Shown here: positions 26,076 to 41,732 of the stretch, one piece after another | Numbering within the stretch: position 1 is the stretch's first letter | Layout: each line of letters begins with the position of its first letter | NCBI GenBank assembly: GCA_032027045.1 | Contig: JAVSMU010000001.1 | Coordinates: 667,846-731,845, forward strand | DNA: 64,000 bases | Direction of reading: 5' to 3' | Source of the DNA: Truepera sp. | Lineage (GTDB): Bacteria; Deinococcota; Deinococci; Deinococcales; Trueperaceae | The notes under the pieces: model-generated | Told to the model about the DNA's origin: nothing | Databases searched by the model: none | The model's input: only the letters and a program-made list of their open reading frames with translations | Program-made: the position numbers and the translations under genes

Positions 26076-26705
26076 ATGTCGTTGGGCCACACTTACTCCA
26101 GTGGTTGGGTCGAGGTGATCGCCGGGCCGATGTTCTCGGGCAAGAGCGAGGAGCTGATCCGCCGCGTGAAGCGCGCGATGATCGCCCGGCAGCGCGTGCA
26201 GGTCTTCAAGCACGCAATGGACGACCGTTACGCACGGCTGGCGGTGGCGTCTCATGACGGGCGCACACTGGAAGCCGAGCTGGTCTCGGGGTCGGCCGAG
26301 CTGCGCGCACGGCTGCTCGAGGGCACGCAGGTAGTTGCGATCGACGAGGCGCAGTTCCTCGACGCGGGCGTGGTGACCGTAGCGGAGCGCCTGGCCGATA
26401 GCGGCGTTCGCGTGATCGTGGCCGGCCTGGACCTCGACTTCCGCGGCGAGCCCTTCGGCCCGATGCCCGAACTGATCGCCCGCGCCGAGGTAGTGGAGAA
26501 GCTCACGGCCATCTGCCGCTGCGGCATGGCCGCCACCCGCACGCAGCGGCTCATCCTGGGCAAACCTGCCCACTTCGACGACCCGACCGTGCTGGTGGGC
26601 GCCTCGGAGAGCTACGAACCGCGGTGCCGGTCGTGCCACGTGGTCATGCGCAACGTGCGTGAAGTGCCGCTGTTCGAGGAACGGCCGCGCGAGGCAAGCG
26701 GTTGA
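26076..26705 (+). CDS. tdk: Thymidine kinase
   Basis: This 209-residue type II thymidine kinase salvages thymidine to dTMP. The P-loop is '[18 protein letters not shown]', the Walker B-like motif is '[11 protein letters not shown]', the catalytic region is '[18 protein letters not shown]', and the Zn-binding cysteines are in 'CRCGMAAT' and 'CRSCH'. The next gene, a SARP regulator, begins with TTG overlapping this stop (TTGA), so read-through into the regulator is likely. Confidence 0.95.
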
Positions 26706-29320
26706 GCGACGGCACGGACGACGCCGCCAAGGCGCCGCTCGAGGCGCGTTTATGGGGAGAACCCCGCTTCTTGCACCGTGGCGTGAAGGTCCGGCCCGCC
26801 TCGGCCAAGGCCCTGGCCCTGCTGGCGTACCTGGTGACGCAGGAGCGGCCCGTGGCGCGCGACGAGCTGGCGACACTCCTGTGGGGGCCCGGGAGGCTCG
26901 CCAACGTGCGGCAGGCCCTCTACCAGTTGCGCACCCTGCCGGGCGCCAGGGAGTGGCTGGTGGACGGCGGACCCAAGATAACCGTCCTCGCGGTCAGCGA
27001 CATCGAGGGGCTGGAGGTAGCGGCCGATGACGCGCCGCTCGAGACGGTCGGCGCCCTCGAGGGGGAGGAGTTCCTCGCCGGAGTGGGCGACGGCCTGCCC
27101 GACCCCTACCTCGACTGGTTGGAAGGGGAGCGTGCGCGGACCGCCGACCTGGTTCGCGGCGCGTTGTCGGTGTCCGCGGCGGCACTGGAAGGCGCAGGTG
27201 ACGTTCAGAGCGCCCTAGCACTCGTCAACAGGCTACGAGACCTCGACCCTTACGATGGGTCGGCCGAGAGGTCGGCCATGAGGCTCACCTACCTGGCCGG
27301 CGAGGCCGACAAGGCTCTGGCCGGTTACGCCCGGTTCGCGGCGCGCCTGAAGGGGGAACTCGGCAGCGAGCCGGATCCGCAGACCAAGGCGTTGGCGCGC
27401 AAGATCGAGCGCGGCGAAGCGCTGGCGCCGACGTTGACGCCGGCGGCGCTCAGCGACGCGGAGCGGCGGATCGTCCAAGCCTTGGCCCTGGCCCGCGGGG
27501 CCCTGAAGGTGGACGGCCTGGCCCGCGTGCTCGAGCGGCCGGCGTTCGACCTCGCCGCCGACCTTGCCAAGCTGGAGAGCCGCGGTTGCGTCGACGGCCA
27601 CTTGAGCGTGAGCCCCGGGTTGAGAGACGAGGTCCTGAAGGGCCTGCCGGCGGCGCTCGGGCGCCTGCTGCACGAGCGCATCGCTACCGTCATGCTGGCC
27701 GAGAACGCCGCGGACCAGGGTGCCCTGGCGCGTCATCTGCTGGCCGCGGGCGAGCACGTCGAGGCGGCGCGCAGGGGCCTGAAGGCCGCGCATGAGGCGC
27801 TGGAGCGGGGCCGACAGACCGACGCCGTCGACCTCCTCTACCTGACGCTCTGGGCGTCGGCGAACGAGCCCGGGTTGAGGCTTGAGGCGTGCCTCTCCCT
27901 GGAGGGCATCGCCGCCGGCCGCGCCGATTTCGGGTTGCAGGAGGCGCTGCTGGCGGAGGTGGAGCGACTGGCCTGGGAGTCCCAGAGCGACTCGGCGCTG
28001 GCCGAGGCCAACGTCAGGCGCGCACGACTGCTGCTGGCGCAACGCAACGTCGGAGCTGCCGTCGAATGCGCGCTCACGGCGCTAAGGGTCGCGTTGCGGA
28101 TCGGCGATACGGGCCTGGTGGCGCGTTCCAGGAACGTGGTCGGAGCCGCGCACTTCTTCGCGGGTGACTTGGACGGCGCCGCCCAGTCGTTCACCTACAA
28201 CCTGGAAGCGGTTGACGAGGTCGAGCGCTACCGCGCCCACAACAACCTGGGCAGCATCCACGCCTTACGCGGCGACCTGGACGCGTCGCACCGCCACTTC
28301 GACGAGGCGCTCACGCTTGCCCGCCGTAACGCCAACCACCTCGACGTGAGCGCGACCCTCAACAACCTCGCCGCCAGCGCCGAGCGCCTGGGCGACTACC
28401 CAAGGGCCGAGAAGCACTTGCGCGAGGGGCTCGCGCTGGCCAGGCACAAGGGAGGAGGGCGCCACGAGGCGGAGATGCTGGTCAACTTGGCGGTGGTCTA
28501 CGCCCGCCAGGGGCAGCTCGGGCCTGCCTGGAACACGACCGAGGAGGTCGGGCTGTTGGCGGCGGAACTCGGCGACGAGCGGCTGGCCATGCGCGTCGCC
28601 GAACAGCGTGCCGAGATCCTGACGCAGTGTGGTGACCTCGAGGCGGCCGTAGCCGGATTCGACTCCGCCCTGGCGGTGGCTGGGGAGCTGGGCGACGAGC
28701 GCAAGCTGCTCGCCCTCGGGGCTCAGCAGCTGCTCGTAAGGGCCAGGCTGGAGCCGACGCTGATGCCCGAGGCGGCCGCCGCGGCCACCGAACTCGAACG
28801 AGCGCGGCTTCACGGCATGGTCTCCTGGCTCAGGCTCGAACTCGCGCTGTTCGCCGCCGACCTCTCGTTCAGCGCGGACCAGCTCGCACTGGTAGGGGCC
28901 GCCGGCACCACCGGCGTTCACCAAGAACTCGTGGGGGAGATCGTGAGGCTGCGGTTGGGCCTGCTGCGTGGAGCCGACGCGGCGGTCCTCGCGGCCTCGG
29001 AGGAGGCACTTTGGCGTCTCGTGGGGGCCGGGCTGATACCACCCACGAAGGTGTGCGGCACCGAGGTCACCTCACGGCCCGAGCGTGTGACGATCGTCGA
29101 GCAGCCCCTCGCGCTGTTCCTGGCGCGAGCGCTCGAGGCAGTGCTCGAGGGCCGGGCGACCGGCGCCACGCCGGCACCGGTTGACGCGGCCGTCGCGGTC
29201 CAGCTGGAAGAGCAAGCCGCGGGCCTCCCGGCGAGACTCAGGCGCACGCTGCTCCAGGCACCCCTGAGGTGGCACTCCGGCCTCCTGTCCCTGCCGGCCG
29301 CCGAACGCCAGGAACCGTGA
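26702..29320 (+). CDS. SARP/BTAD-family transcriptional regulator with TPR domain
   Basis: This 872-residue putative activator is built in three parts. Residues 14-95 form an OmpR-like winged helix ('[27 protein letters not shown]', then '[12 protein letters not shown]'). Residues 105-240 form a bacterial transcriptional activation domain ('[23 protein letters not shown]' and '[23 protein letters not shown]'). After a second small helical domain come TPR-like repeats from about 330 to 700 ('[25 protein letters not shown]' and similar). No Walker A ATPase motif is seen, unlike larger SARP-STAND proteins. The TTG start overlaps the tdk stop. Three promoters downstream carry SARP-like direct repeats, so it is their likely regulator. 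The signal it senses is unknown. Confidence 0.85.
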
Positions 29321-29411: not shown

Positions 29412-29444
29412 TTGACACCCCGTTGACACCCTTTCGACTACGCT
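29412..29444 (+). promoter_or_regulatory. SARP-type operator and promoter (site 1)
   Basis: TTGACAC (29412-29418), 4 nt, TTGACAC (29423-29429), 9 nt, TACGCT (29439-29444). Neither TTGACA is at the normal 17-nt distance from the -10 box (21 and 10 nt), as expected for activator-dependent SARP promoters. It lies 92 bp after the SARP gene and drives the 29532-38361 genes. The rest of 29321-29531 shows no gene. Confidence 0.65.
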
Positions 29445-29531: not shown

Positions 29532-29726
29532 GTGAAGGACAGCAGTCACAGGTTCTTGTTGAAGGTCTGGTGCGAGTCGGGAGAAAGGCCGGGATGGCAC
29601 GCGGTTCTTAGGGACGTCGTCGACGGGACGTTGCACGAGTTCACGGCTACGGAGGCGTTGGTCAAGTACCTGACCAGCCTCGACGGGATGGCCGGCACCG
29701 CACAGCTCGAGGAGGAAGTCGAATGA
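29532..29726 (+). CDS. 64-aa protein of unknown function
   Basis: This small soluble protein has two predicted beta strands ('HRFLLKVWCE' and 'GWHAVLRDVVDGTLHEFT') followed by a helix ('ATEALVKYLTSLDG'), a pattern I have seen in short uncharacterised proteins. It has no membrane segment or signal. The GTG at 29532 has GGGAG about 5 nt upstream; a GTG at 29511 is a weaker alternative. It is the first gene after SARP site 1 and overlaps the next gene as ATGA, so it is coupled to the envelope operon. Confidence 0.65.
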   Translation: MKDSSHRFLLKVWCESGERPGWHAVLRDVVDGTLHEFTATEALVKYLTSLDGMAGTAQLEEEVE

Positions 29727-30349
29727 AGAAGAAGTTCGCTCTCGGTTGCCTCATCGTGGCGATCGCAATCATCGTCGTGGGTGGCGGCGCCGCCTACTTC
29801 TACATCATCAGGCCCCTGACCAACACGGTCAAAGCCGCCACTGAACTCGGCCGCATCACCGAGATCGAAGGCCGAGTGAGCAACAAGCGGTCGTTCACGG
29901 CCCCCACGGACGGAGAACTGAAGGCGAGCGACGTGGAGCGCTACCTCAACGTCACGCGCGCGGTGTCGGCCGGCCTCAAGGGCAAGGCGGCGGAGTTGGA
30001 GAGCAAGTACTCGCAACTCGTAGATGACGACAGCAACCCGAGCGTCCGCCAGGTCATCAACGCCTACGGCGACATCATCCGCCTCGTGGTTCAGGCGAAG
30101 GAGTTGCAGGTCAAGGCGCTCAACGCCGAGGGCTTCTCGCTGGCCGAGTACTCCTGGGTGCGCCGTGAGGTGTATCAGGCCGCCGGCATCGGCTACCACG
30201 CACTCGACCTGACGGCCCTGTCCGAGGGCGAAGTAGACGAGACGCAGAACGCCGGCCTGCAGGAAGCCCCTCCCAAGAACGTGGAGCTGGTGGCGCCTTA
30301 CGTCGACGAACTCGACGAGTACATGCCGCTGGCCGTGTTCGGTCTGTGA
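29723..30349 (+). CDS. Membrane-anchored protein of unknown function
   Basis: This 208-residue protein has one N-terminal membrane segment (residues 5-30, 'FALGCLIVAIAIIVVGGGAAYFYII'), which may act as a signal anchor. The exported part begins with 'TELGRITEIEGRVSNKRSFTAPTDGELKASDVERYL', continues with helices, and ends in an acidic/hydrophobic tail. A Cys at residue 9 lies inside the hydrophobic stretch and does not form a good lipobox. The gene overlaps both neighbours by 4 bp (ATGA and GTGA), so it is probably a partner of the 806-aa and 1822-aa secreted proteins. Confidence 0.7.
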   Translation: MKKKFALGCLIVAIAIIVVGGGAAYFYIIRPLTNTVKAATELGRITEIEGRVSNKRSFTAPTDGELKASDVERYLNVTRAVSAGLKGKAAELESKYSQLVDDDSNPSVRQVINAYGDIIRLVVQAKELQVKALNAEGFSLAEYSWVRREVYQAAGIGYHALDLTALSEGEVDETQNAGLQEAPPKNVELVAPYVDELDEYMPLAVFGL

Positions 30350-32766
30350 AAGGCGCCCTCACGCCAGACCGCCCTGCGCGCGCCGCCCGGCCGCCCGGCC
30401 GCTTCAGGGGGCCTCTCGGCGTAGTCCTCGCGAGCTTCCTCGCCTTCGCCTGGGCGCCCAGCGCGCTGGCACAGGGCAGCGGAACGGACGCCGCCCTCGA
30501 AGAGTTGGCGCGTCAGCGGCGCCTGCTCGAGGTCGTGCGGGAAGGAGTCGACGGGTCTCGCTTCGATCTCGACGCCCTGCGGCTGGACGCCGCGTTCATG
30601 GACGCCACGGAGATCGGCGACGCCGTGGCAACGGGCTACGGCTTCGAACTCTACCGGGGCGTGCTGCGGGGGCCCGAGGGGACCCTCGTGTCGGGCGCCG
30701 GCAACGCCTTCGACCTGTCGTTGCTGTTGGCCACACTGCTGCAAGATGCCGGCTACGATTCGCGCATCGCCGTCGGCACGCTCGAGGCCGAGGACGCCGA
30801 GCGGCTGCTCGCTCGCGTCCTGGAGCCGGTGGAGGCGCCCGGCGCCACCGCCATCGGCGGTGACCGCCTAGCGGAACTGGCGCAGGCGGGCGGCGTGAGC
30901 GAGGCCGGACTCGTGGAGTACGGCCGCGCGCTGACCGCCGTCGACGTCACGTCCAGCGACCGCTATCAGGAGTCGGTCGCGGCGAGCGGCGCCCTCATCC
31001 AGGCGCTCGCCGGCGCCGGCTTCGATCTGCGGGGCGCTACTCATGCAGACCTGGTGGACGAGGCAGGGGAGTACGCCTGGGTCGAGTACCGGCTCGGCGC
31101 CACGGACGAGTGGGGCGCGTTACACCCCGCGTTCGGCGCTCAGCCGAGCCCGTCCGCGGTCGTGGCCGAGGAGTACCTCGAGGGCTCCGTCCCAGACCGC
31201 TTCCAGCACCGGCTTCGGATCGAGGTCGGGATCGAGAGGAAGCGGGGCGAGGTCTTCACCGAGGAGCCGCTCATGACCCCGTGGGAGCGACCCGTGGCGA
31301 ACATGCTCGGCGTGAACCTGTCGGTGGCCAACTCGCCGCTAGGGCAGGGTGCCGGCGCGAGCCTGCAGGAGATCGCCGGCAGCATCGGCGACACCATGTT
31401 CTTCGTTCCCCTGCTGAACGGGACCATGGCGCCGGGAGCGCGCGCCTTCGACACGATGGGCAACCTCTTGTCGCCTGAGGACGCCGCCAGCCCCATGGCG
31501 GGCGTGTTCCAGACGGGGGCGGGCAAGCTCAACCAGGCGACGGGGGCGTTGGGGGGCCTCGGGAACGACGGCCCGGCGGACGACGAGCCTTTCGCGCTCA
31601 CGGCACAGTTCGTGGACGTCGTCCACGTCGCGCCGGGAGGCGAAGAGAGCCGCCAGAGACGCTACATCTTCGACCGGCGCGCCGGCGACGCCCGCGCCTT
31701 GGGAGGTACGGCCCTGCTGGACGAGAGCGTGCTGCTGAACGGCATCCTGTCGAACATGGAGATCATGGTCACGGGAGGCTCGCTGCCGCTGGACTTCCTG
31801 GCGCTCGACACGACCGCACAGGGCATGCTCTACGTCGAAGCGATGGAGCGCCTCGTCCGGCAGCCCGACGCGTCGGCCCTGGAAACGGCCTTCGCGGACG
31901 TGAGGGGCCGCGATCAGTTGCTGCTGATGGCGCTCTTCGAGGCCTCGGCGTCGGGCGCGGGCGGTGTCGCCTACCGGGCAGAACCGACGGTGGTGTCGAT
32001 ACGGCAGGCGCTTACCGTCGGCGACTCGGTCGGGGTCGAGATAGGCGTAGACATCATGTTCAGCGGCCGCAGGTTCCTCGTGGACGGGCCGTCCGGCGTT
32101 ACGGAGGATCCGGACGCCGCGGTCCTGGCCGGCGCCTGGGACACCATGGTCGAGAGGCTCTACATGCAGAGGTTCGATCCTGCGGTCGCCAGCGCGTACT
32201 CGGTCTTCGGAGCCGGGGCGCCTCTCGAGGTGGTGAAGAGCGAGGACGAACTCGCGGCCTCCGGCGCGCCGACCGCAGCGCTTCCGGCCATGCAGCGGGA
32301 CCTGAGCGCCGGCAACGTCCTGGTCTACGCCGCTGCCCAACCGGGCGCGGACGAAGCCTTCGGTTACTGGCGGGTGGATCCACTGACGGGCGTGACGCTC
32401 GGAATGGGAACCGGCGGTCACGGCAGCGCGTTGACCGAGTTCCTCGTCGAGTTGTCGCCGAGCCTCGCGCTGGCGGCCGCGCTGGCCGTGCCGGGCGCCG
32501 CCCTGTGCGCCACCCAGAAGGGTGACGACCTCATACTTTGCATCTGTGACATGGTCACGGGGATCGCCATCTTCACGGGCATCGGCGTGGGCATCGCTGC
32601 CGCTTTCGGAGGCGCCACCGTCTTGGTGCAACAAGGAGTCGCCGTAGGCTCGTTCCTGGCCCTGGACCTAGGGGTGGGCGTTCCGTCGCTCTTCCTCGGT
32701 GGGCCTTGCACGTGGGTCGATAAGCTTATCGGCGACAGCGGGCCGCGTAGTTGCATCCTGGCCTGA
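30346..32766 (+). CDS. Secreted protein with degenerate transglutaminase-like core and hydrophobic C-terminus
   Basis: This 806-residue exported protein has a signal peptide ending near residue 42 ('APSALA|QG'). Residues 110-150 resemble the core of transglutaminase-like proteins ('GTLVSGAGNAFDLSLLLATLLQDAGYDSRI'), but Asn120 occupies the usual Cys position. The later 'YAWVEYRLGATDEWGALHPAFG' (about 242-265) matches the His/Asp region with Tyr in place of His, so enzymatic activity is unlikely. A long middle part has no recognised domain. From about residue 698 there are two or three hydrophobic segments and six Cys, suggesting membrane anchoring. The GTG start overlaps the preceding stop. 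The transglutaminase-like match is by eye. Confidence 0.6.
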   Translation: MKGALTPDRPARAARPPGRFRGPLGVVLASFLAFAWAPSALAQGSGTDAALEELARQRRLLEVVREGVDGSRFDLDALRLDAAFMDATEIGDAVATGYGFELYRGVLRGPEGTLVSGAGNAFDLSLLLATLLQDAGYDSRIAVGTLEAEDAERLLARVLEPVEAPGATAIGGDRLAELAQAGGVSEAGLVEYGRALTAVDVTSSDRYQESVAASGALIQALAGAGFDLRGATHADLVDEAGEYAWVEYRLGATDEWGALHPAFGAQPSPSAVVAEEYLEGSVPDRFQHRLRIEVGIERKRGEVFTEEPLMTPWERPVANMLGVNLSVANSPLGQGAGASLQEIAGSIGDTMFFVPLLNGTMAPGARAFDTMGNLLSPEDAASPMAGVFQTGAGKLNQATGALGGLGNDGPADDEPFALTAQFVDVVHVAPGGEESRQRRYIFDRRAGDARALGGTALLDESVLLNGILSNMEIMVTGGSLPLDFLALDTTAQGMLYVEAMERLVRQPDASALETAFADVRGRDQLLLMALFEASASGAGGVAYRAEPTVVSIRQALTVGDSVGVEIGVDIMFSGRRFLVDGPSGVTEDPDAAVLAGAWDTMVERLYMQRFDPAVASAYSVFGAGAPLEVVKSEDELAASGAPTAALPAMQRDLSAGNVLVYAAAQPGADEAFGYWRVDPLTGVTLGMGTGGHGSALTEFLVELSPSLALAAALAVPGAALCATQKGDDLILCICDMVTGIAIFTGIGVGIAAAFGGATVLVQQGVAVGSFLALDLGVGVPSLFLGGPCTWVDKLIGDSGPRSCILA

Positions 32767-32892
32767 TGAACGCGTGCCCCTACCCGCGCGACGTCGCCGG
32801 TCGTCCAGGGTCCGGGGACGCCGAACGGCTGCGCGTTCGAGTCTCACCCGTGCCGCGAGGAAGCGGCCGAACCTTCAGTTGAGGAGAACATA

Positions 32893-35800
32893 GTGGTCGC
32901 TACGAGTCTGGCCCCAAGAACGAAGTCGGCAAGGTTCGGGCTGGTTACCAGGCCGTGGCGCCGGGCGGCGTCGATGCTGCTGCTCTCCCTGGCGCTGGCT
33001 GCGGGCGCCGCTTACGCCCAGCAGTGCACCTACGAGCTCGAACCCAACGAGACGCCCGCCACCGCCACTCGTCTCACGGGCGCCGGACCGCAGATGCTCG
33101 GGCCCGCGAGGGGCAACTCGGTCGGTGGGTTGTGCCTTACCGGGGACGTCAGCGCCAGCGACCAGGACGCCTTCCGCTGGGACGTCTCCGAGGAGCAGGC
33201 AGCTCATCGCTGGGAGATCGAGCTGGTGGGCCCGGGCGGAAGCCTCACCAAGCTGGACCTGTTCCGCGTGACGTTCGCTGAGAACGGCTCGGACGTGACG
33301 GCGGTGGACAAGCTCCTCGACATCGGCACGCAGGGGGGCGCCGCGGCCGTCTCCGAGCAGTTCCTGGTCGAGCCCGGGGCCTACTTCCTGGGCCTATCCA
33401 ACAGCGGCAACGGCGGCGAGTACGTAGCCAACGTCCGACCCGTGAGCGTGCTGCGGTACGGCGACGCAGATGAGCGTTACGACGAGCTTTCCCGCTCCAG
33501 GAGCTACACCGGCGAGTTCGGCCTGTACGGCCCGGTGGACGGCGAGCTCGAGCAGAAGTTCAGCCTGGGCGAGGCCGAGGCCGGCCGCGTCTGGGGGCTC
33601 GAGCTGTGGGCCGCGTTGGGCACCGCGCCGAGCCTCCGGCTGGAGGGCCCCGGCGGCGTCATCGCCGAAGGGAAGGCCGGTGCGGACGGCCGCGTGCGGC
33701 TTCCTGGCCTCGGCCTGGGGGTCGGTGATTACGTGGCGCGGGTGGTCGGCGCCAGCGGCATGATCCGCCTGCGCCTGGAGTCGCAGGGCATCCGCGGCGA
33801 CGGCGTGGCCGTCGAACCGAACGACGATTGGCAGACCGCCACCGTGTTCCCGGTGGCGGGAGAGATGCGGGCGACGCTTCACGGGCGTGACTACTTCCGC
33901 ATCGACGTCCCCGAGGACGGCGCGGGGATCTACGATTTCGACTTCGACCCTGACTCGGAGCTGAGTTACACGTTCATGGACGCCGCGGGCACCAAGCTCA
34001 TGATGTCCGGGCGGGGCAGCGTGGGCGGCACTCGTCATGGGCTCTCGCTGGTCGAGGGAACGTACAGGTTATTAGTCGAGGGCACAGACGGCGTGCAGTA
34101 CCGGATGGCGCTGAGGCCGGCGGCGGCCATTGGAGACGAGCTCGAGCCCAACGACACCCCGGCGGGCGCCAGCCCCATCCCGGAGAACGGCAAGGTGCGC
34201 GGCCAGTTCGACGGTTACGAGGCCGACGTCTACCGCCTTGAGGTGACGGGCGAGGCGCAGCTCTACCGAGTGCAACTGGTCGGACCCACCGCCACCCGCC
34301 TCACGCAGCAGACGGCCAGGGGCCAGGAGCTGGCCAGGGCCTCGGGCACGAACCGACTACGCCTGGACGACCTCGTGCTATTGCCCGGGACTCACTACTT
34401 CGAGGTGCTGGGCGAAGGCGGCGAGTATGCCCTGAGGGTCCTGGCGCTCGGGCCCGCCCCAGTGGCCACGCAAGGAGCAGCAGCCGGTCCCGCGCCCGAC
34501 GAGCCGCTCTCCCCGGCAGCGCCCGGTACCCCCACCGAGCCCGCCGAGGAGGCCGCCGCCGCGCCGGAGGCGGCGCCGCTGGTGGCCGGCCCGCCGCCGC
34601 CACCCGGGATCTTGGAGCTCGAGCCGAACGACGACGCCAGCCGGGCGATGAGGCTCATCCCGGACCAGGTTCACGTCGGGCGCCTCACCGGCGGCAGCGA
34701 CGACTACTACCGCTTCTTCCTAGCGAGAGACCAGTACGTGCGCCTGGAACTTCAGCCACCCGAAGGCGGCCTACCCATCGGCATAAGGTTGGACGATGTC
34801 GGGTGGCTCTTGGTGCTTGACGGTGACGAGGGAGGCCCCGCCGTGTACGAGCGGAAGTTCCTGGCGGGGAACCATGGCCTGTTCCTGCGGAGCCCCGAGG
34901 TCGAATCGGACGGGTACTACCAACTACGATTGACATTCCCCAACAACCTGTTGCCGCCCGTCGACGCCGAGCCCAACGACGATATCCGCACCGCCTCCAC
35001 GCTTCCCGCGGAGCTCGAGTGGACGGGCCAGGCGGGTGAGTTCGGTGGGGACCCCGACTTCTACCGCCTACCGGTCTTCGATAAGGACACGGTGTTCCGG
35101 CTGACGCTCGAGGGGACCTCGCAACGGCCCGACGTCATGTTCACGAACGAGGGCGGCCGCCTACAACTCAGTGAGAGCAAGTCGGATAAAGAGGGAGGCG
35201 CTTGGAGCGGCACGATCCCGGCCGGCGAGAGCACCTGGTTGCGCCTCTACGTCAACTCCCGCTACGAGGCGCGTCTGAGCTTCGACGGAGTGCCTGACCC
35301 GGCGCAGCTGCTGGCGCCGCGCGCCTCCGGGGCCCTGAACGTCACGCTGGAGTCCTCGGCCGACGAGCTGGCCGCCTTCTGGCACGAGGGTCAGGCGTTC
35401 GTCGCGACCGCCACCGTCGAGAACCGCACCGATTCGCCGCAGGAGGTTCGCCTCGAGGCCGCGAGCAACAACCCGTTGGTGGGCCTCTCCTACGAAGCCG
35501 GGCTGACCCTGGCCGCGGGCGAGAGCCGCGCCGTGCCGGTGGAAGTCCTCGTTCCCCGCGACCTGCGTGACGACCTGCCCCTCAGGGTCGAGGTTTCCGC
35601 GGTCAGTGCCGAGGGTTCCGCGGCGGCAGACGTCGTGGCGGCAGCCAGGTGCGAGGCGCAACCCGTGGACCCGCGCGCCGCCTGGCCCCTGCCGGACTCA
35701 CTGCTGGGTAGGTTCGACGCGCTGCGGCCGGACTTCGGCGCCGCCCTCTTCGGCGCATCCGATTACGAGCGGCGCGACCGGCAGTTGATAGACGGGCGCG

Positions 35801-38361
35801 TCGGACCGAGCGGCGGCGGCTACCTGCACCTCTCCCACTCTCCCACCTACCGCCTCGCCGGGGACGGGCCCGTGACCCTGTTGGGGGCCACGCTCGACCC
35901 CCGCTCGGACGCCCGCGCCGGAGACTACTTGAAGGCCTTCCGGATCGAGACCTCGCTCGACGGCCGGCAGTTCACGCCCGCCTTCGACGGCGTCCTGGAA
36001 GCGTCGGCGGTCGAGCAGGCTTTCGTCTTCGACGCGCCGGTGACGGCCAGCTACGCGCGCCTCGTCTTCGTCAGCTCACAACGGAACTCGAGCAACGCCT
36101 ACCTGGGCGAATGGAAGCTCATCGCCGCCCCGGACGCAACCTTCGGAGAGGTCAACCTTGCGGCCCCTGAGGCGGGCGGTCACGTCGTGACCAGTGACCC
36201 GTATATCGGTAGCCACGGAGCCTCGCTGATCACCGGGGACGACGGCAGCGCCAGCGCCGTCGATCTCAGGAGCAAGGAGGCGTTCACGTTCGTCGTCGGC
36301 TTCCACGACGGTCGCGCCGCCCAGGTGACGCGCATCGAGTGGCAGGACAAATTGGACACGGGCTCGCGCAACGGGGCACCGTTCCTCGGTGCCACCGTCG
36401 AGGTGAGCCTCACGGGCGGGGCCGGGCCATGGGCGCCGCTGGCCGACTGGACGTTGCGCCGCGATGCAAACGGTGTCGCCACCCTGCAATTTGCCGAGCC
36501 CGTGTGGGCCCGCTACCTGAAGTTCACGGCGGCCAAGGTAGACGGGGACGACGGTGAGCCGGGCCGCTACTTCAGCCCGCCCGACGTCCTGCGGGTGTTC
36601 GAGCGGGCGCCGGACGACGAGTACCGTTCCGCCCTCGGCGAGTGGGGCGCCATGTCGCGGGACGCGATCTACGAGTACCTGAACCCGGTCACGGTCGGCC
36701 GCGAGCTTCCCGATGCGGGCAACGACACCCTTCAGTCGGCGACCCCGCTCAGGAGCGGCGAGCAGGTAAGCGGGGCCGTGGAAGTGGCCGTCGACGAGGA
36801 CTGGTACCGGCTCACCATCCCCGCCGGCCAGAACTTCCTGGAGCTCACCCTCGCAGGTGACCCGCAGATCTTCTACCTGTACGAGCTGGTGGATGCCAGC
36901 GGCAACCAGGTGGGCTTCGACGAGCGCTTCGAGGGCGACGACGTCGTGCTGTCGCTTTTCGCCGACCCCGGCGATTACTACCTCCACCTGTGGGAGCCCA
37001 AGCGGACGGTGGTGTTCAGCTGGGACACGAGCGGCTCCGTGAGCCCTTACCAGGCCATCACCTACAACTCGCTCGCGAGCTTCGCCGCCGGCGTGAACGG
37101 CGAACGCGAGGCCGTTCAGCTCCTCGCCTTCGACGACCCTGCCCCGAAGTGGCTGTTGCCCTTCTGGTCCAGCGATCCACAGCGCGTGCAGCGCTCGATC
37201 GTCGAGTTCGACCGCGAGGCCGACTCGAGCAACTCCGAGACGGCACTGCTCACGGCCACCAAGGCGCTGGAGGACCGAGAGGGCACCCGCGCCATCTTGC
37301 TCATGACGGACGCCGAGTCACCCAGCCAGGCCATCACCTCCGACCTGTGGGCGGCTTTCGAACGGGTACGACCCCGCATCTTCACCTTCGAGATCAGCTC
37401 GGGAGGCAGCGACTACGCTCAAGACCTCATGCAGGACTGGGCGGACGTCAACTCCGGCATCTACTCGTTGGCGGCCGGCATAGGCGACTTCGACGCAGGC
37501 TTCTCCCGCGCCTCGTGCGTCTTGCGTCGCCCCAAGCGCTACGTTCTGATGCTCAACACGCGAGCCGCCCCACTTCCCGGACCCGGGAGCCTCTCCGTGC
37601 AGGCGGCCCCGGGCGCTGCCAGGGCCGCCGTGGAGATCGTCTTCGACGCCTCTGGGTCGATGGGCAAGGAGCTGCCGAGTGGCGAACAGCGCATCACGGC
37701 CGCGAAGCGGGCGCTGACCCAACTCGTGAACGAGGTGCTCCCTGAGGAGACCCCGTTCGCCTTGCGCGCCTTCGGGCACATCAAGCCGTCGTCCTGCGAG
37801 ACGCGACTGGACCTGCCGCTGGCGCCGCTGGACCGCGCCAAGGCGGCTGCGGTGGTTCAGGCGATAGAGCCGAAACTCCTGTCGCAGACGCCTATCGCGG
37901 ATTCGCTGCTGGCCGTCAAGGATGACCTCGCGCAGGCCGGCGGCGCGAGGACGGTCATCCTGATAACCGACGGCGAGGAATCGTGCGGCGGCGATCCCGC
38001 CGCCGCCGTGCGGGAGCTGCGCGCCTCCGGGCCCGTGGACTTCGCCATCGTCTCCCTGGGGCTCGAGCCGGAAGCCCTGGCGGTGTTCCAGGCCCTAGCC
38101 GCCGACGTGGGAGCGACCTACGTCGACGTCGGCTCGTTCGAGGCGCTGAGCGAGGCCGTGGCCGAGGCGCTCAACCCGGCCTTCGAGGTGTTCGATGCCA
38201 AGTCGGGAGAGCTCGTAGCGCGGGGCCGGGTCGGGGCGGACCCGGTGTCACTCGAGATGGGGGTGTACGACGTGCGCGTGCTCGTCTCGCCCGTGCAGGA
38301 GTTCCGGGCCGTGAGGGTGCCGGGGGAGAGGGACGTGAGGCTCACGCTTCGTGAGCCTTGA
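32893..38361 (+). CDS. Giant secreted PPC / discoidin-like / tandem VWA protein
   Basis: This 1822-residue exported protein has GAGGAG 6 nt before its GTG. A signal peptide ends at about residue 42. Repeats with an (E/D)xEPN(D/E) opening, typical of PPC (pre-peptidase C-terminal) domains, begin near residues 48, 307, 417, 577 and 693; a divergent one lies near 1276. Two beta-rich segments at about 965-1080 and 1095-1235 ('LKAFRIETSLDGRQFTP', 'ARYLKFTAAKVDG') look like F5/8-type discoidin domains. Two von Willebrand A domains follow, each with a DxSxS metal site: 'SWDTSGSVS' (1377) and 'FDASGSMGKE' (1583). A short PEGA-like beta domain ends the protein. It is likely a surface or extracellular adhesion/ligand-binding protein; the partner is unknown. 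It follows the 806-aa gene by 126 bp, a gap with no other feature seen. Confidence 0.8.
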   Translation: MVATSLAPRTKSARFGLVTRPWRRAASMLLLSLALAAGAAYAQQCTYELEPNETPATATRLTGAGPQMLGPARGNSVGGLCLTGDVSASDQDAFRWDVSEEQAAHRWEIELVGPGGSLTKLDLFRVTFAENGSDVTAVDKLLDIGTQGGAAAVSEQFLVEPGAYFLGLSNSGNGGEYVANVRPVSVLRYGDADERYDELSRSRSYTGEFGLYGPVDGELEQKFSLGEAEAGRVWGLELWAALGTAPSLRLEGPGGVIAEGKAGADGRVRLPGLGLGVGDYVARVVGASGMIRLRLESQGIRGDGVAVEPNDDWQTATVFPVAGEMRATLHGRDYFRIDVPEDGAGIYDFDFDPDSELSYTFMDAAGTKLMMSGRGSVGGTRHGLSLVEGTYRLLVEGTDGVQYRMALRPAAAIGDELEPNDTPAGASPIPENGKVRGQFDGYEADVYRLEVTGEAQLYRVQLVGPTATRLTQQTARGQELARASGTNRLRLDDLVLLPGTHYFEVLGEGGEYALRVLALGPAPVATQGAAAGPAPDEPLSPAAPGTPTEPAEEAAAAPEAAPLVAGPPPPPGILELEPNDDASRAMRLIPDQVHVGRLTGGSDDYYRFFLARDQYVRLELQPPEGGLPIGIRLDDVGWLLVLDGDEGGPAVYERKFLAGNHGLFLRSPEVESDGYYQLRLTFPNNLLPPVDAEPNDDIRTASTLPAELEWTGQAGEFGGDPDFYRLPVFDKDTVFRLTLEGTSQRPDVMFTNEGGRLQLSESKSDKEGGAWSGTIPAGESTWLRLYVNSRYEARLSFDGVPDPAQLLAPRASGALNVTLESSADELAAFWHEGQAFVATATVENRTDSPQEVRLEAASNNPLVGLSYEAGLTLAAGESRAVPVEVLVPRDLRDDLPLRVEVSAVSAEGSAAADVVAAARCEAQPVDPRAAWPLPDSLLGRFDALRPDFGAALFGASDYERRDRQLIDGRVGPSGGGYLHLSHSPTYRLAGDGPVTLLGATLDPRSDARAGDYLKAFRIETSLDGRQFTPAFDGVLEASAVEQAFVFDAPVTASYARLVFVSSQRNSSNAYLGEWKLIAAPDATFGEVNLAAPEAGGHVVTSDPYIGSHGASLITGDDGSASAVDLRSKEAFTFVVGFHDGRAAQVTRIEWQDKLDTGSRNGAPFLGATVEVSLTGGAGPWAPLADWTLRRDANGVATLQFAEPVWARYLKFTAAKVDGDDGEPGRYFSPPDVLRVFERAPDDEYRSALGEWGAMSRDAIYEYLNPVTVGRELPDAGNDTLQSATPLRSGEQVSGAVEVAVDEDWYRLTIPAGQNFLELTLAGDPQIFYLYELVDASGNQVGFDERFEGDDVVLSLFADPGDYYLHLWEPKRTVVFSWDTSGSVSPYQAITYNSLASFAAGVNGEREAVQLLAFDDPAPKWLLPFWSSDPQRVQRSIVEFDREADSSNSETALLTATKALEDREGTRAILLMTDAESPSQAITSDLWAAFERVRPRIFTFEISSGGSDYAQDLMQDWADVNSGIYSLAAGIGDFDAGFSRASCVLRRPKRYVLMLNTRAAPLPGPGSLSVQAAPGAARAAVEIVFDASGSMGKELPSGEQRITAAKRALTQLVNEVLPEETPFALRAFGHIKPSSCETRLDLPLAPLDRAKAAAVVQAIEPKLLSQTPIADSLLAVKDDLAQAGGARTVILITDGEESCGGDPAAAVRELRASGPVDFAIVSLGLEPEALAVFQALAADVGATYVDVGSFEALSEAVAEALNPAFEVFDAKSGELVARGRVGADPVSLEMGVYDVRVLVSPVQEFRAVRVPGERDVRLTLREP

Positions 38362-38411
38362 CTTAGGCGCTGAGTCGAGAGGTTTTGGTGGCCGGGAGTG
38401 GGCCCGGCTAC

Positions 38412-38477
38412 CAGTCGGGGCCCGGCTCACCAACGGTAGGGGTCTGACTCCCCACCGGTCGGGACCCGACTCACCTA
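38412..38477. repeat. 22-bp tandem repeat, three units
   Basis: Units at 38412-38433, 38434-38455 and 38456-38477 share a (C)(G/A)GT(C/A)GGGG-type start and a (G/A)CTCxCC end, with a small dyad in each (for example GTCGGGACCCGAC). A partial fourth unit precedes them. They lie directly upstream of SARP site 2. The 22-bp period is twice 11 bp. Confidence 0.65.
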
Positions 38478-38487
38478 CGGCCGGACG

Positions 38488-38520
38488 TTGACGGCGCGTT
38501 GACGCCCCTTCGTGTAACTT
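38488..38520 (+). promoter_or_regulatory. SARP-type operator and promoter (site 2)
   Basis: TTGACGG (38488-38494), 4 nt, TTGACGC (38499-38505), 9 nt, TAACTT (38515-38520). The geometry is identical to site 1 at 29412, and the CCCTTTCG/CCCCTTCG spacer is also similar. It controls the membrane-protein gene at 38647. The rest of 38521-38646 shows no gene. Confidence 0.65.
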
Positions 38521-38646
38521 TGGCAGCAGAAGTCACTATTAGCGTGACTGCACCGCCCTAGGTCGCGGGGTTGCCGGTCCATTACCTTGGACGCGGCGCT
38601 TCTCGAACCGCAACGGTGCCGTGACGACCAGGAAGGGAAGGCGCGG

Positions 38647-39660
38647 ATGCCGAAGATCTACTTAGGTGAGGCCATTCGACTGGTCCTCAAGACCCTGCCG
38701 ATCGTTTGGGTGAGGCTTGCCAGCTACTTGGTGTTGGGCCTTGGGCTCGGTATCTATGCGGGGCTGTTCATCGGCATCGGTTTGCTCTTGGCGAAGCTCT
38801 GGGCGCCGCTCGGTGTCATCATCTTCATCGCTGCCGTCGGTGGCGCTTTCTGGATCGTCGACCTGGCCGGCAAGTACTGGTTCCACCTGTTGCGGGCGGC
38901 GCATACGGCGGTCATGACCGAGTTCATCACCACCGGTAACGGTCCGGTCACGGGCCAGCTCGAGTATGGACGCAAGCAGGTCATGAGCCGCTTCGCAGAC
39001 ACCTCCATCCTCTTCGGCGTCGGCCTGCTGGTTGGGGGCATCACGAAGTTCGTCGTTCGAACGTTCACCCGTATCGTGTCCATCCTGCCGGTGCCCGGAG
39101 TCGACTCGTTGGGCAAGTTCCTCGAGCGCGTTGCCATCCTCAGCACCACCTACGTCGACGAGGCGATCTTGTCGCGCGCTTACGCCAAGCGCGAACAGAA
39201 CGTGTGGGCGGTGGCCAAGGACGGCGTCGTGCTCTACGCCCAGGCGTGGAAGCCCATCTTGGCCAACGCCGTCGTCTTGGCGCTACTCAGCTACGCCGAG
39301 TTCGTCATCTTCCTCCTGATCCTCGGCTTACCGGCGCTGGCCATCGGCGCCGCTGCGCCCAACCTCGGGCCGGCCCTGGGCATCGGCGTCCTGATAGGCG
39401 CTTGGATGCTGAAGCTCGCGCTCTCGGACGCCATCTCGCTCGCCGCCACGCTCCTCGCCTACCATGGCGCCACCGCCACCATGGAACCGAACCCGGAGTG
39501 GGTGGCCAAGCTCGACGGGGCGAGCGACAAGTTCCGTGAACTCGGGCGCAAGGCCGCGGCCGCGGTGGGGTCGGTCGGTCGCGCCCCCGCGGAGGTCGAG
39601 GCGGAGGAGGACCAGAGGGACGCCGGCCCGGCGCTGGAGGGCGACGCGGCTACAGCCTGA
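38647..39660 (+). CDS. Polytopic membrane protein of unknown function
   Basis: This 337-residue inner-membrane protein has about six or seven membrane segments: near residues 15-50 (two), 55-75, 112-130, then 200-225, 230-250 and 255-280. A charged cytoplasmic tail of about 45 residues follows. The N-terminus 'MPKIYLGEAIRLVLKTLPIVWVRL' is amphipathic. I do not recognise the family. The ATG has GGGAAGG about 7 nt upstream. SARP site 2 in its promoter ties it to the secreted-protein operon upstream, so it may be a membrane platform or export component; this is an inference. Confidence 0.7.
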   Translation: MPKIYLGEAIRLVLKTLPIVWVRLASYLVLGLGLGIYAGLFIGIGLLLAKLWAPLGVIIFIAAVGGAFWIVDLAGKYWFHLLRAAHTAVMTEFITTGNGPVTGQLEYGRKQVMSRFADTSILFGVGLLVGGITKFVVRTFTRIVSILPVPGVDSLGKFLERVAILSTTYVDEAILSRAYAKREQNVWAVAKDGVVLYAQAWKPILANAVVLALLSYAEFVIFLLILGLPALAIGAAAPNLGPALGIGVLIGAWMLKLALSDAISLAATLLAYHGATATMEPNPEWVAKLDGASDKFRELGRKAAAAVGSVGRAPAEVEAEEDQRDAGPALEGDAATA

Positions 39661-41004: not shown

Positions 41005-41643
41005 TTAGAACTTGGCGCGCAGCGCCGCCACCACCTGGTTGATGGCGGAGTTCGCCGCCTCGGCGAACAGGGGACCGACCGTCGGGTCGTTGTAGCTGAC
41101 GTTCCCAGCGACCGGGACGTTGCTCACGCTGATGTTCGGGCTCATGGCCTCGCCCGACCCCTTCTTCGACACGACGACCTCGCCGGTCACGATGTCGGTG
41201 GCGCGCACGTCGACCTCGATCTGGGCCTTCGTCTCGCCCAGGGTGACGCCGAACAGGCTGCCACCGGGCCGGGCAACGGTGGCGCGGGTGACGGTGCCTG
41301 TTACCACGTAACCTGCGCCGGCCGCCTTGGCCAGGGCGACGGGGTCGAGCGACTCCATGCCCTGCTTCTCGATGATGGTCTGCAGCTCGCTGCGCTCGAC
41401 GATCACGTAGCAGCCGGACTCCTTGAGCAGCGTGATGAGGCGCGCGGTGGCGGCCTCCTCGACGCCCACTACGCTCACGCCGCCACCCTGGCCGGACGTG
41501 TTCTGGAAGTCGACGACCGCCACGGTCGGTATCGGATCCGAGACGCAGGCGGCGGGTCCGGCGGTGACCTCGGTCGTGGGGGCGCAAGCACCGAGCAAGG
41601 CGGTGGCAACGGCGATCAGGGCGACTATGGGTCTACGCAACAT
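41005..41643 (-). CDS. CsgG/HfaB-like lipoprotein
   Basis: This 212-residue exported lipoprotein has a signal ending in 'ALLGAC' with the lipid-bearing Cys at residue 20. The body matches the CsgG-type pattern: 'PTVAVVDFQNTSGQ' at the start of the domain, 'VEEAATARLITLLKESGCYVIVERSELQTIIEKQGM', 'ALAKAAGAGYVVTGTVTRA' and a C-terminal 'NSAINQVVAAL' helix. Such proteins form or support outer-membrane secretion or assembly complexes. GAGGAG lies upstream of the ATG. Its promoter carries SARP site 3, so it could help assemble or export the secreted proteins encoded 3-12 kb upstream. Confidence 0.78.
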   Translation of the reverse strand: MLRRPIVALIAVATALLGACAPTTEVTAGPAACVSDPIPTVAVVDFQNTSGQGGGVSVVGVEEAATARLITLLKESGCYVIVERSELQTIIEKQGMESLDPVALAKAAGAGYVVTGTVTRATVARPGGSLFGVTLGETKAQIEVDVRATDIVTGEVVVSKKGSGEAMSPNISVSNVPVAGNVSYNDPTVGPLFAEAANSAINQVVAALRAKF

Positions 41644-41700
41644 TGTGGCTCCTCTTCCGCAACGAACGTCGCTGGACGATCGGGGTGATTTCCGTGACCA

Positions 41701-41732
41701 ACGCTACCAGAAAGGCGTCAAAGACCCATCAA
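41701..41732 (-). promoter_or_regulatory. SARP-type operator and promoter (site 3)
   Basis: Read on the minus strand: TTGATGG (41732-41726), 4 nt, TTGACGC (41721-41715), 8 nt, TAGCGT (41706-41701). This is the same heptamer-4-heptamer order as sites 1 and 2, with one base less before the -10 box. The CsgG-like gene starts about 58 nt downstream of the -10. Confidence 0.6.

Follow-up and report, generated by a model that had tools for sequence, protein, structure and literature searches.

The window, a 64-kb part of a single-contig genome of 2.92 Mb (~69% G+C), carries a block of five forward-strand genes that encode proteins of 64, 208, 806, 1822 and 337 amino acids, all found where the first-pass annotation had placed them. 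A small 64-amino-acid protein (29532-29726), present in all five congeners that have the system, is the first gene product after a predicted operator. It is followed by a 208-amino-acid protein with one N-terminal transmembrane anchor at residues 5-23 (29723-30349), a secreted 806-amino-acid protein that resembles transglutaminases and is a putative pseudoenzyme (30346-32766), a giant secreted protein of 1822 amino acids (32893-38361) and a polytopic membrane protein of 337 amino acids with about 5-6 predicted transmembrane segments (38647-39660). Pfam searches, transmembrane prediction and an alignment of the catalytic triad bear out the earlier descriptions of the four smaller proteins. The genes had been called overlapping or close: neighbours among the first three share 4 bp (29723-29726 for 64/208 and 30346-30349 for 208/806), and the last two are close without overlapping, with intergenic gaps of 126 bp (806-1822) and 285 bp (1822-337). 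The block is flanked by hslUV-tdk on one side and by an M20 peptidase gene, csgG and asnS on the other. The csgG gene, on the minus strand, had been omitted from the earlier description and lies outside the interval that it covered.

The giant protein, whose named relatives come from metagenome-assembled genomes (MAGs) of the Trueperaceae (Deinococcota), has a signal-peptide-like sequence (MLLLSLALAAGAAYA, from 32974) and has no predicted transmembrane segment past it. Its domains follow in the order PPC repeats, an Ig domain, two discoidin/CBM32 modules, a further PPC repeat, two VWA domains and a small beta domain. The first-pass annotation had proposed at least five PPC-type repeats, two discoidin-like modules, two VWA domains with intact DxSxS sites and a PEGA-like end; profile searches recovered the VWA, F5/8C and PPC types, and PEGA found no Pfam match at E values up to 1. 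Pfam recognizes VWA twice (E = 9.5e-15 and 1.6e-8) and F5/8C (E = 3.6e-9), and PPC scores 24.4 bits, just under the cut-off of 25.9. Among 11 homologues, F5/8C is matched by all 11 (best E = 1.7e-11) and PPC by 9 (E up to 0.1, best 5e-9).

Searched against Pfam one by one, the single N-terminal repeats, which carry EPND motifs, matched nothing, and we therefore compared them profile against profile. The block (33022-35313) consists of R1 (33022-33423), a weaker R1b (33421-33759), R2 (33799-34113), R3 (34129-34458), R4 (34609-34953) and R5 (34957-35313), all PPC-type; EPND or EPNE stands at the start of each of R1-R5. These five are mutually related (hhalign probability of 87-98%) and are linked to R6 (36745-37008), the sole repeat recognized by Pfam as PPC, at 94% for R3 and 86% for R2; the Ig region, used as a negative control against the repeats, gave 0.1-6%. 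A collagenase (5iku) has tandem collagen-binding domains, of a subclass of PPC (PMC4356367), with which R4-R5 align at E = 1.2e-11. In all, the giant protein has six or seven PPC-type repeats. The clostridial collagenase shares the order PPC then PPC with the giant protein, which has no enzyme domain.

An Ig-like domain of FixG_C type (35311-35673; E = 1.8e-4, under the curated cut-off) leads into the two discoidin/CBM32-like modules (35671-36603), of which the first (35671-36162) is recognized as F5/8C by Pfam and the second (36160-36603) is backed by a weak Pfam match (E = 0.046), by hhalign against the first (83%) and by Foldseek matches to tandem discoidin/CBM32 proteins. The Ig-like domain and the first module together match the Ig and CBM32 part of the Micromonospora viridifaciens sialidase (E = 1.6e-7), which has the same module order and, in contrast to the giant protein, an enzyme domain. 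The first VWA domain (37000-37533) contains DTSGS (D1378) and TD (D1473), and the second (37615-38187) contains DASGS (D1585), T1666 and D1693, so that both DxSxS sites are indeed intact. The MIDAS residues D1378, S1380, S1382 and D1473 of the first domain and D1585, S1587, S1589, T1666 and D1693 of the second are invariant among the 11 homologues; the Thr of the first MIDAS shows no conservation among them. A small beta domain forms the C terminus (38161-38358), two homologues weakly matching CarboxypepD_reg at this end.

An AlphaFold model covering the last 1001 residues has a mean pLDDT of 74 and a pTM of 0.46. Its best Foldseek match is PTMP1 of mussel byssus (4cn9, E = 5.6e-17), which also has two VWA domains with MIDAS motifs but is an animal matrix protein of different overall architecture and about 16% identity; factor VIII comes next, along with further proteins that have tandem discoidin or CBM32 modules. 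These matches are multi-domain with low TM-scores, so they speak for the types of domain present and not for how these are arranged.

The 806-amino-acid protein belongs to a family with four paralogous members, at the profile level, in the genome of the window. Transglut_core (PF01841) is found in 13 of 19 aligned homologues (best E = 4e-6), and the protein of the window scores 16.2 bits against a cut-off of 23. With the triad register taken from the Transglut_core match, an alignment shows Ala or Ser in place of the catalytic Cys in 19 of 19 homologues, at a position inside the conserved motif GN-x-x-D. The protein of the window has Ala for Cys, Tyr for His and His for Asp; the last two replacements are common to its clade, and distant paralogues retain both His and Asp. 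The description as degenerate transglutaminase-like thus holds for the triad residues, and by its sequence the protein is probably a pseudoenzyme. Its C terminus is hydrophobic and has Cys residues, and a Foldseek search with its structure model returned no fold match under E = 0.001. At other places in the same genome, three more pseudo-transglutaminase genes are solitary (G000:C1, 485544-487853, 2140930-2142873 and 2912453-2914729), and a giant-protein neighbour is missing at all three.

The csgG gene (41005-41643, minus strand) encodes a predicted lipoprotein with the lipobox LLGAC and a Pfam CsgG (PF03783) match of 78.6 bits against a cut-off of 20.8, spanning positions 9-199 of the 210 in the model; two homologues score 55.0 and 61.3 bits. 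The lipobox is present in most homologues, that of G018 being without it. The protein is shorter than Escherichia coli CsgG and only weakly similar to the solved CsgG structure (E = 0.005).

Searches of 39 Trueperaceae genomes found the 1822 gene in 13, and the 806 family in exactly those 13 by both single-sequence and profile searches (Fisher P = 1.2e-10); strong csgG orthologues occur in 12 of the 13 and in none of the 26 genomes without 1822 (P = 3.3e-9), these P values ignoring shared ancestry and being inflated by it and by the incompleteness of MAGs. Within the four genera of mixed presence, the concordance of 1822 and 806 is perfect (P = 2.4e-4). The one exception for csgG, G030 (660 contigs), has 1822, lacks csgG and contains 806 only as broken pieces. 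Many of the family genomes are MAGs, yet in two genomes (G001 and G024) the locus is intact and the trio of 1822, 806 and csgG is absent; in the congener G001, the genes for the SARP-type regulator described below, 64, 208, 806, 1822 and csgG are all absent between intact tdk and asnS. The first-pass annotation had treated the five genes as one co-ordered set. As a single conserved unit the five are rejected, with 208 and 806 gone from the locus in the congeners G004 and G005, a different order in G003 and a 208/337 pair that also occurs alone; a conserved neighbourhood of all five was likewise not found. What stands is the co-occurrence of 1822 with the 806 family, even where they are unlinked (G004 and G005), extended to csgG.

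The 208- and 337-amino-acid proteins are a looser, associated, separable module. Neither has a credible match in Pfam, NCBIfam or PDB. The 208 gene is present in 14 of the 39 family genomes and the 337 gene in 15 of 111 genomes of the phylum, all Trueperaceae, at 60-84% identity; their association with 1822 is weak (P = 0.03 and P = 0.08, respectively), and both serve as an internal control. The two genes are adjacent without the trio in G006, G012, G014 and G024. Standalone pairs also lie in loci of 37% and 44% G+C (L156, 8730-10320; L157, 3529-5205), where the 337-amino-acid protein is still about 60% identical.

Among the 111 phylum genomes, the full architecture of the 1822-amino-acid protein was found only in Trueperaceae. 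Outside the family, a two-peptide pattern scan of 84,980 genomes, which could miss distant relatives, returned matches to the VWA region only. In the phylum search, VWA-only matches in other families, or in genomes without the trio, represent separate VWA proteins rather than the giant protein. Among the papers of the library searched, none was found to describe this gene combination.

SARP activators are familiar from antibiotic clusters. Here, a gene for an 872-amino-acid SARP-type regulator (26702-29320, plus strand; Pfam BTAD, 42.9 bits, and TPR) stands directly upstream of the system in all five congeners that have it. Between this gene and the first structural gene, the same five genomes have TTTGACRCCYCGTTGACACC, with a TANNNT box 8 bp after it; allowing up to three mismatches, this operon-head site is unique in each of them and missing from the G001 genome, which is without the system. 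In the window, it takes the form TTGACAC-N4-TTGACACC, with TACGCT 8 bp after the heptamer TGACACC (29412-29444, plus strand). Further predicted operators precede the 337 gene (TTGACGG-N4-TTGACGCC, 8 bp, TAACTT; 38488-38520, plus strand) and csgG (TTGATGG-N4-TTGACGCC, 7 bp, TAGCGT; 41699-41732, minus strand), as well as the relocated 806 genes of relatives, which in G004 and G009 are found on separate contigs. The predicted form is two TTGACRC heptamers with an 11-bp period and 7-8 bp to the -10 box. This fits the published geometry of SARP sites, with 11-bp repeats and the 3' repeat 8 bp from the -10 box (PMC10936776, PMC5930380), for sites that are here predictions from sequence.

The relaxed pattern TTGACRNNNNNTTGACRC has two matches in the 2.92-Mb genome, both at this locus (29412 and 38488). 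Across six genomes it has 16 matches: 12 before genes of the system, two orthologous ones inside coding sequence and two before other secreted or outer-membrane-type proteins; the reversed pattern has none in the same six. At the loci examined, high-scoring sites (at least 13/16) stand upstream of 18 of the 67 genes that belong to the system and of 4 among the 472 that do not (P = 2.7e-14); in this comparison, the five operon heads on which the motif was built are circular, and the csgG, 337 and relocated 806 sites are not. A scan of the region for sigma-70 promoters and terminators gave nothing above chance. The earlier proposal that the genes share regulation gains independent sequence support from the predicted common SARP-type operator, and the SARP gene product is a candidate activator of the locus whose binding to these sites we infer from their position.

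The domain types and the partner composition of the system are well supported, and we regard them as highly probable. The best explanation, which we hold tentatively, is a SARP-activated system for the surface display of a giant binding protein. The SARP-type regulator would switch on the genes of the locus through the operator-like sites, and the 1822-amino-acid protein would leave the cytoplasm by Sec, as its signal peptide suggests. It would act as a multi-domain binder, with EPND-type PPC repeats, CBM32-like modules that would bind glycan and a pair of metal-dependent VWA domains, and, having no membrane anchor of its own, would be brought to or kept at the surface by the CsgG-family protein, a putative outer-membrane lipoprotein. 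The 806-amino-acid pseudo-transglutaminase would be an obligatory accessory without enzyme activity, as a periplasmic chaperone or tether.

We infer the CsgG-dependent placement from the family membership of the lipoprotein, the binding-type domains of its candidate cargo and the analogy with HfaB, which is required for surface localization of HfaA and HfaD in the Caulobacter holdfast anchor (PMC6707917). The HfaA/HfaB/HfaD system likewise combines a CsgG-family protein with secreted surface proteins, whereas the CsgG-like protein here goes with a giant protein of PPC, CBM32 and VWA modules and with a pseudo-transglutaminase, beside a SARP-type regulator, and no gene like hfaA or hfaD is seen among those of the locus. 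Curli secretion also relies on a protein of the CsgG family, an outer-membrane lipoprotein, but a curlin-repeat protein, CsgE and CsgF are unseen among the locus genes and the cargo proposed here is giant and multi-domain. This export route is far less supported than the composition, and we would rate it somewhat below an even chance; doubt comes from the size of the cargo and from the weak similarity to the solved CsgG. Some CsgG-family proteins are not secretion pores, and the CsgG substrates known so far are small; a chain of ~1800 residues would be exceptional. That the locus represents an undescribed, Trueperaceae-confined mode of export, combining a CsgG-type pore, a cargo of ~1800 residues, a dead transglutaminase and a SARP, is possible and rather doubtful.

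The trio could instead work as an envelope scaffold, remaining periplasmic or sitting on the inward-facing side of the outer membrane and linking outer membrane, glycan and cell wall, with the CsgG-like protein as a structural lipoprotein rather than a pore. The short, weakly similar CsgG-like protein, the membrane pair 208/337 at the same locus and the lack of a recognized outer-membrane export signal in the giant protein would suit this arrangement, but tandem VWA, PPC and CBM32-like modules are usual in extracellular binding proteins and the CsgG match takes in most of the Pfam model; we consider it unlikely. Less probable again is nutritional capture, in which the giant and CsgG-like proteins would capture glycan or protein polymers outside the cell and pass their breakdown products to transporters. 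The CBM32 and collagen-binding-type PPC similarities are compatible with it, as are genes for sugar ABC transporters or an SBP_bac_8 protein, which in the genera g11 and g14 separate tdk from 337/208 (L092, L093, L152, L153 and L037). However, every protein of the trio is without a catalytic domain, the locus in the genus of the window has no transporter genes, and transporter genes also adjoin 337 in a genome without the trio (G015).

In the Lap system, the transglutaminase-like protease LapG releases or retains the giant adhesin LapA. A giant VWA protein beside a transglutaminase-fold protein superficially resembles that pair, but the catalytic Cys is replaced throughout the aligned homologues, His and Asp are gone in the 806 clade, the Peptidase_C93 profile is unmatched by the 806 homologues, and type I secretion and a LapD-like receptor are unseen at the locus, so a Lap-type protease function is rejected and control of this kind is strongly disfavoured and very improbable. 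That the genes are chance neighbours in a conserved hslUV-tdk-asnS region, as their variable order and the occurrence of 208/337 without the rest might suggest, is equally improbable given the exact co-occurrence of 1822 and 806 when unlinked, the co-occurrence of csgG and the operator-like sites common to unlinked copies.

If the surface-display reading is right, CsgG/HfaB-type export would extend to giant multi-domain proteins, a dead transglutaminase family would gain a partner role and a SARP regulator would govern a cell-surface system in the Deinococcota; the trio provides a clear gene set and the predicted operator a concrete target. Operator-like sites also stand at genes outside the system, for a lipoprotein (L095, 7772-8191), a secreted protein (L195, 151-738) and an outer-membrane-type protein (L194, 5742-6071), hinting at a wider regulon. 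In another genus, a 61-amino-acid protein encoded beside a SARP-type gene (L050, 18971-19156) looks by eye like the 64-amino-acid protein; small proteins of this kind may generally accompany SARPs.
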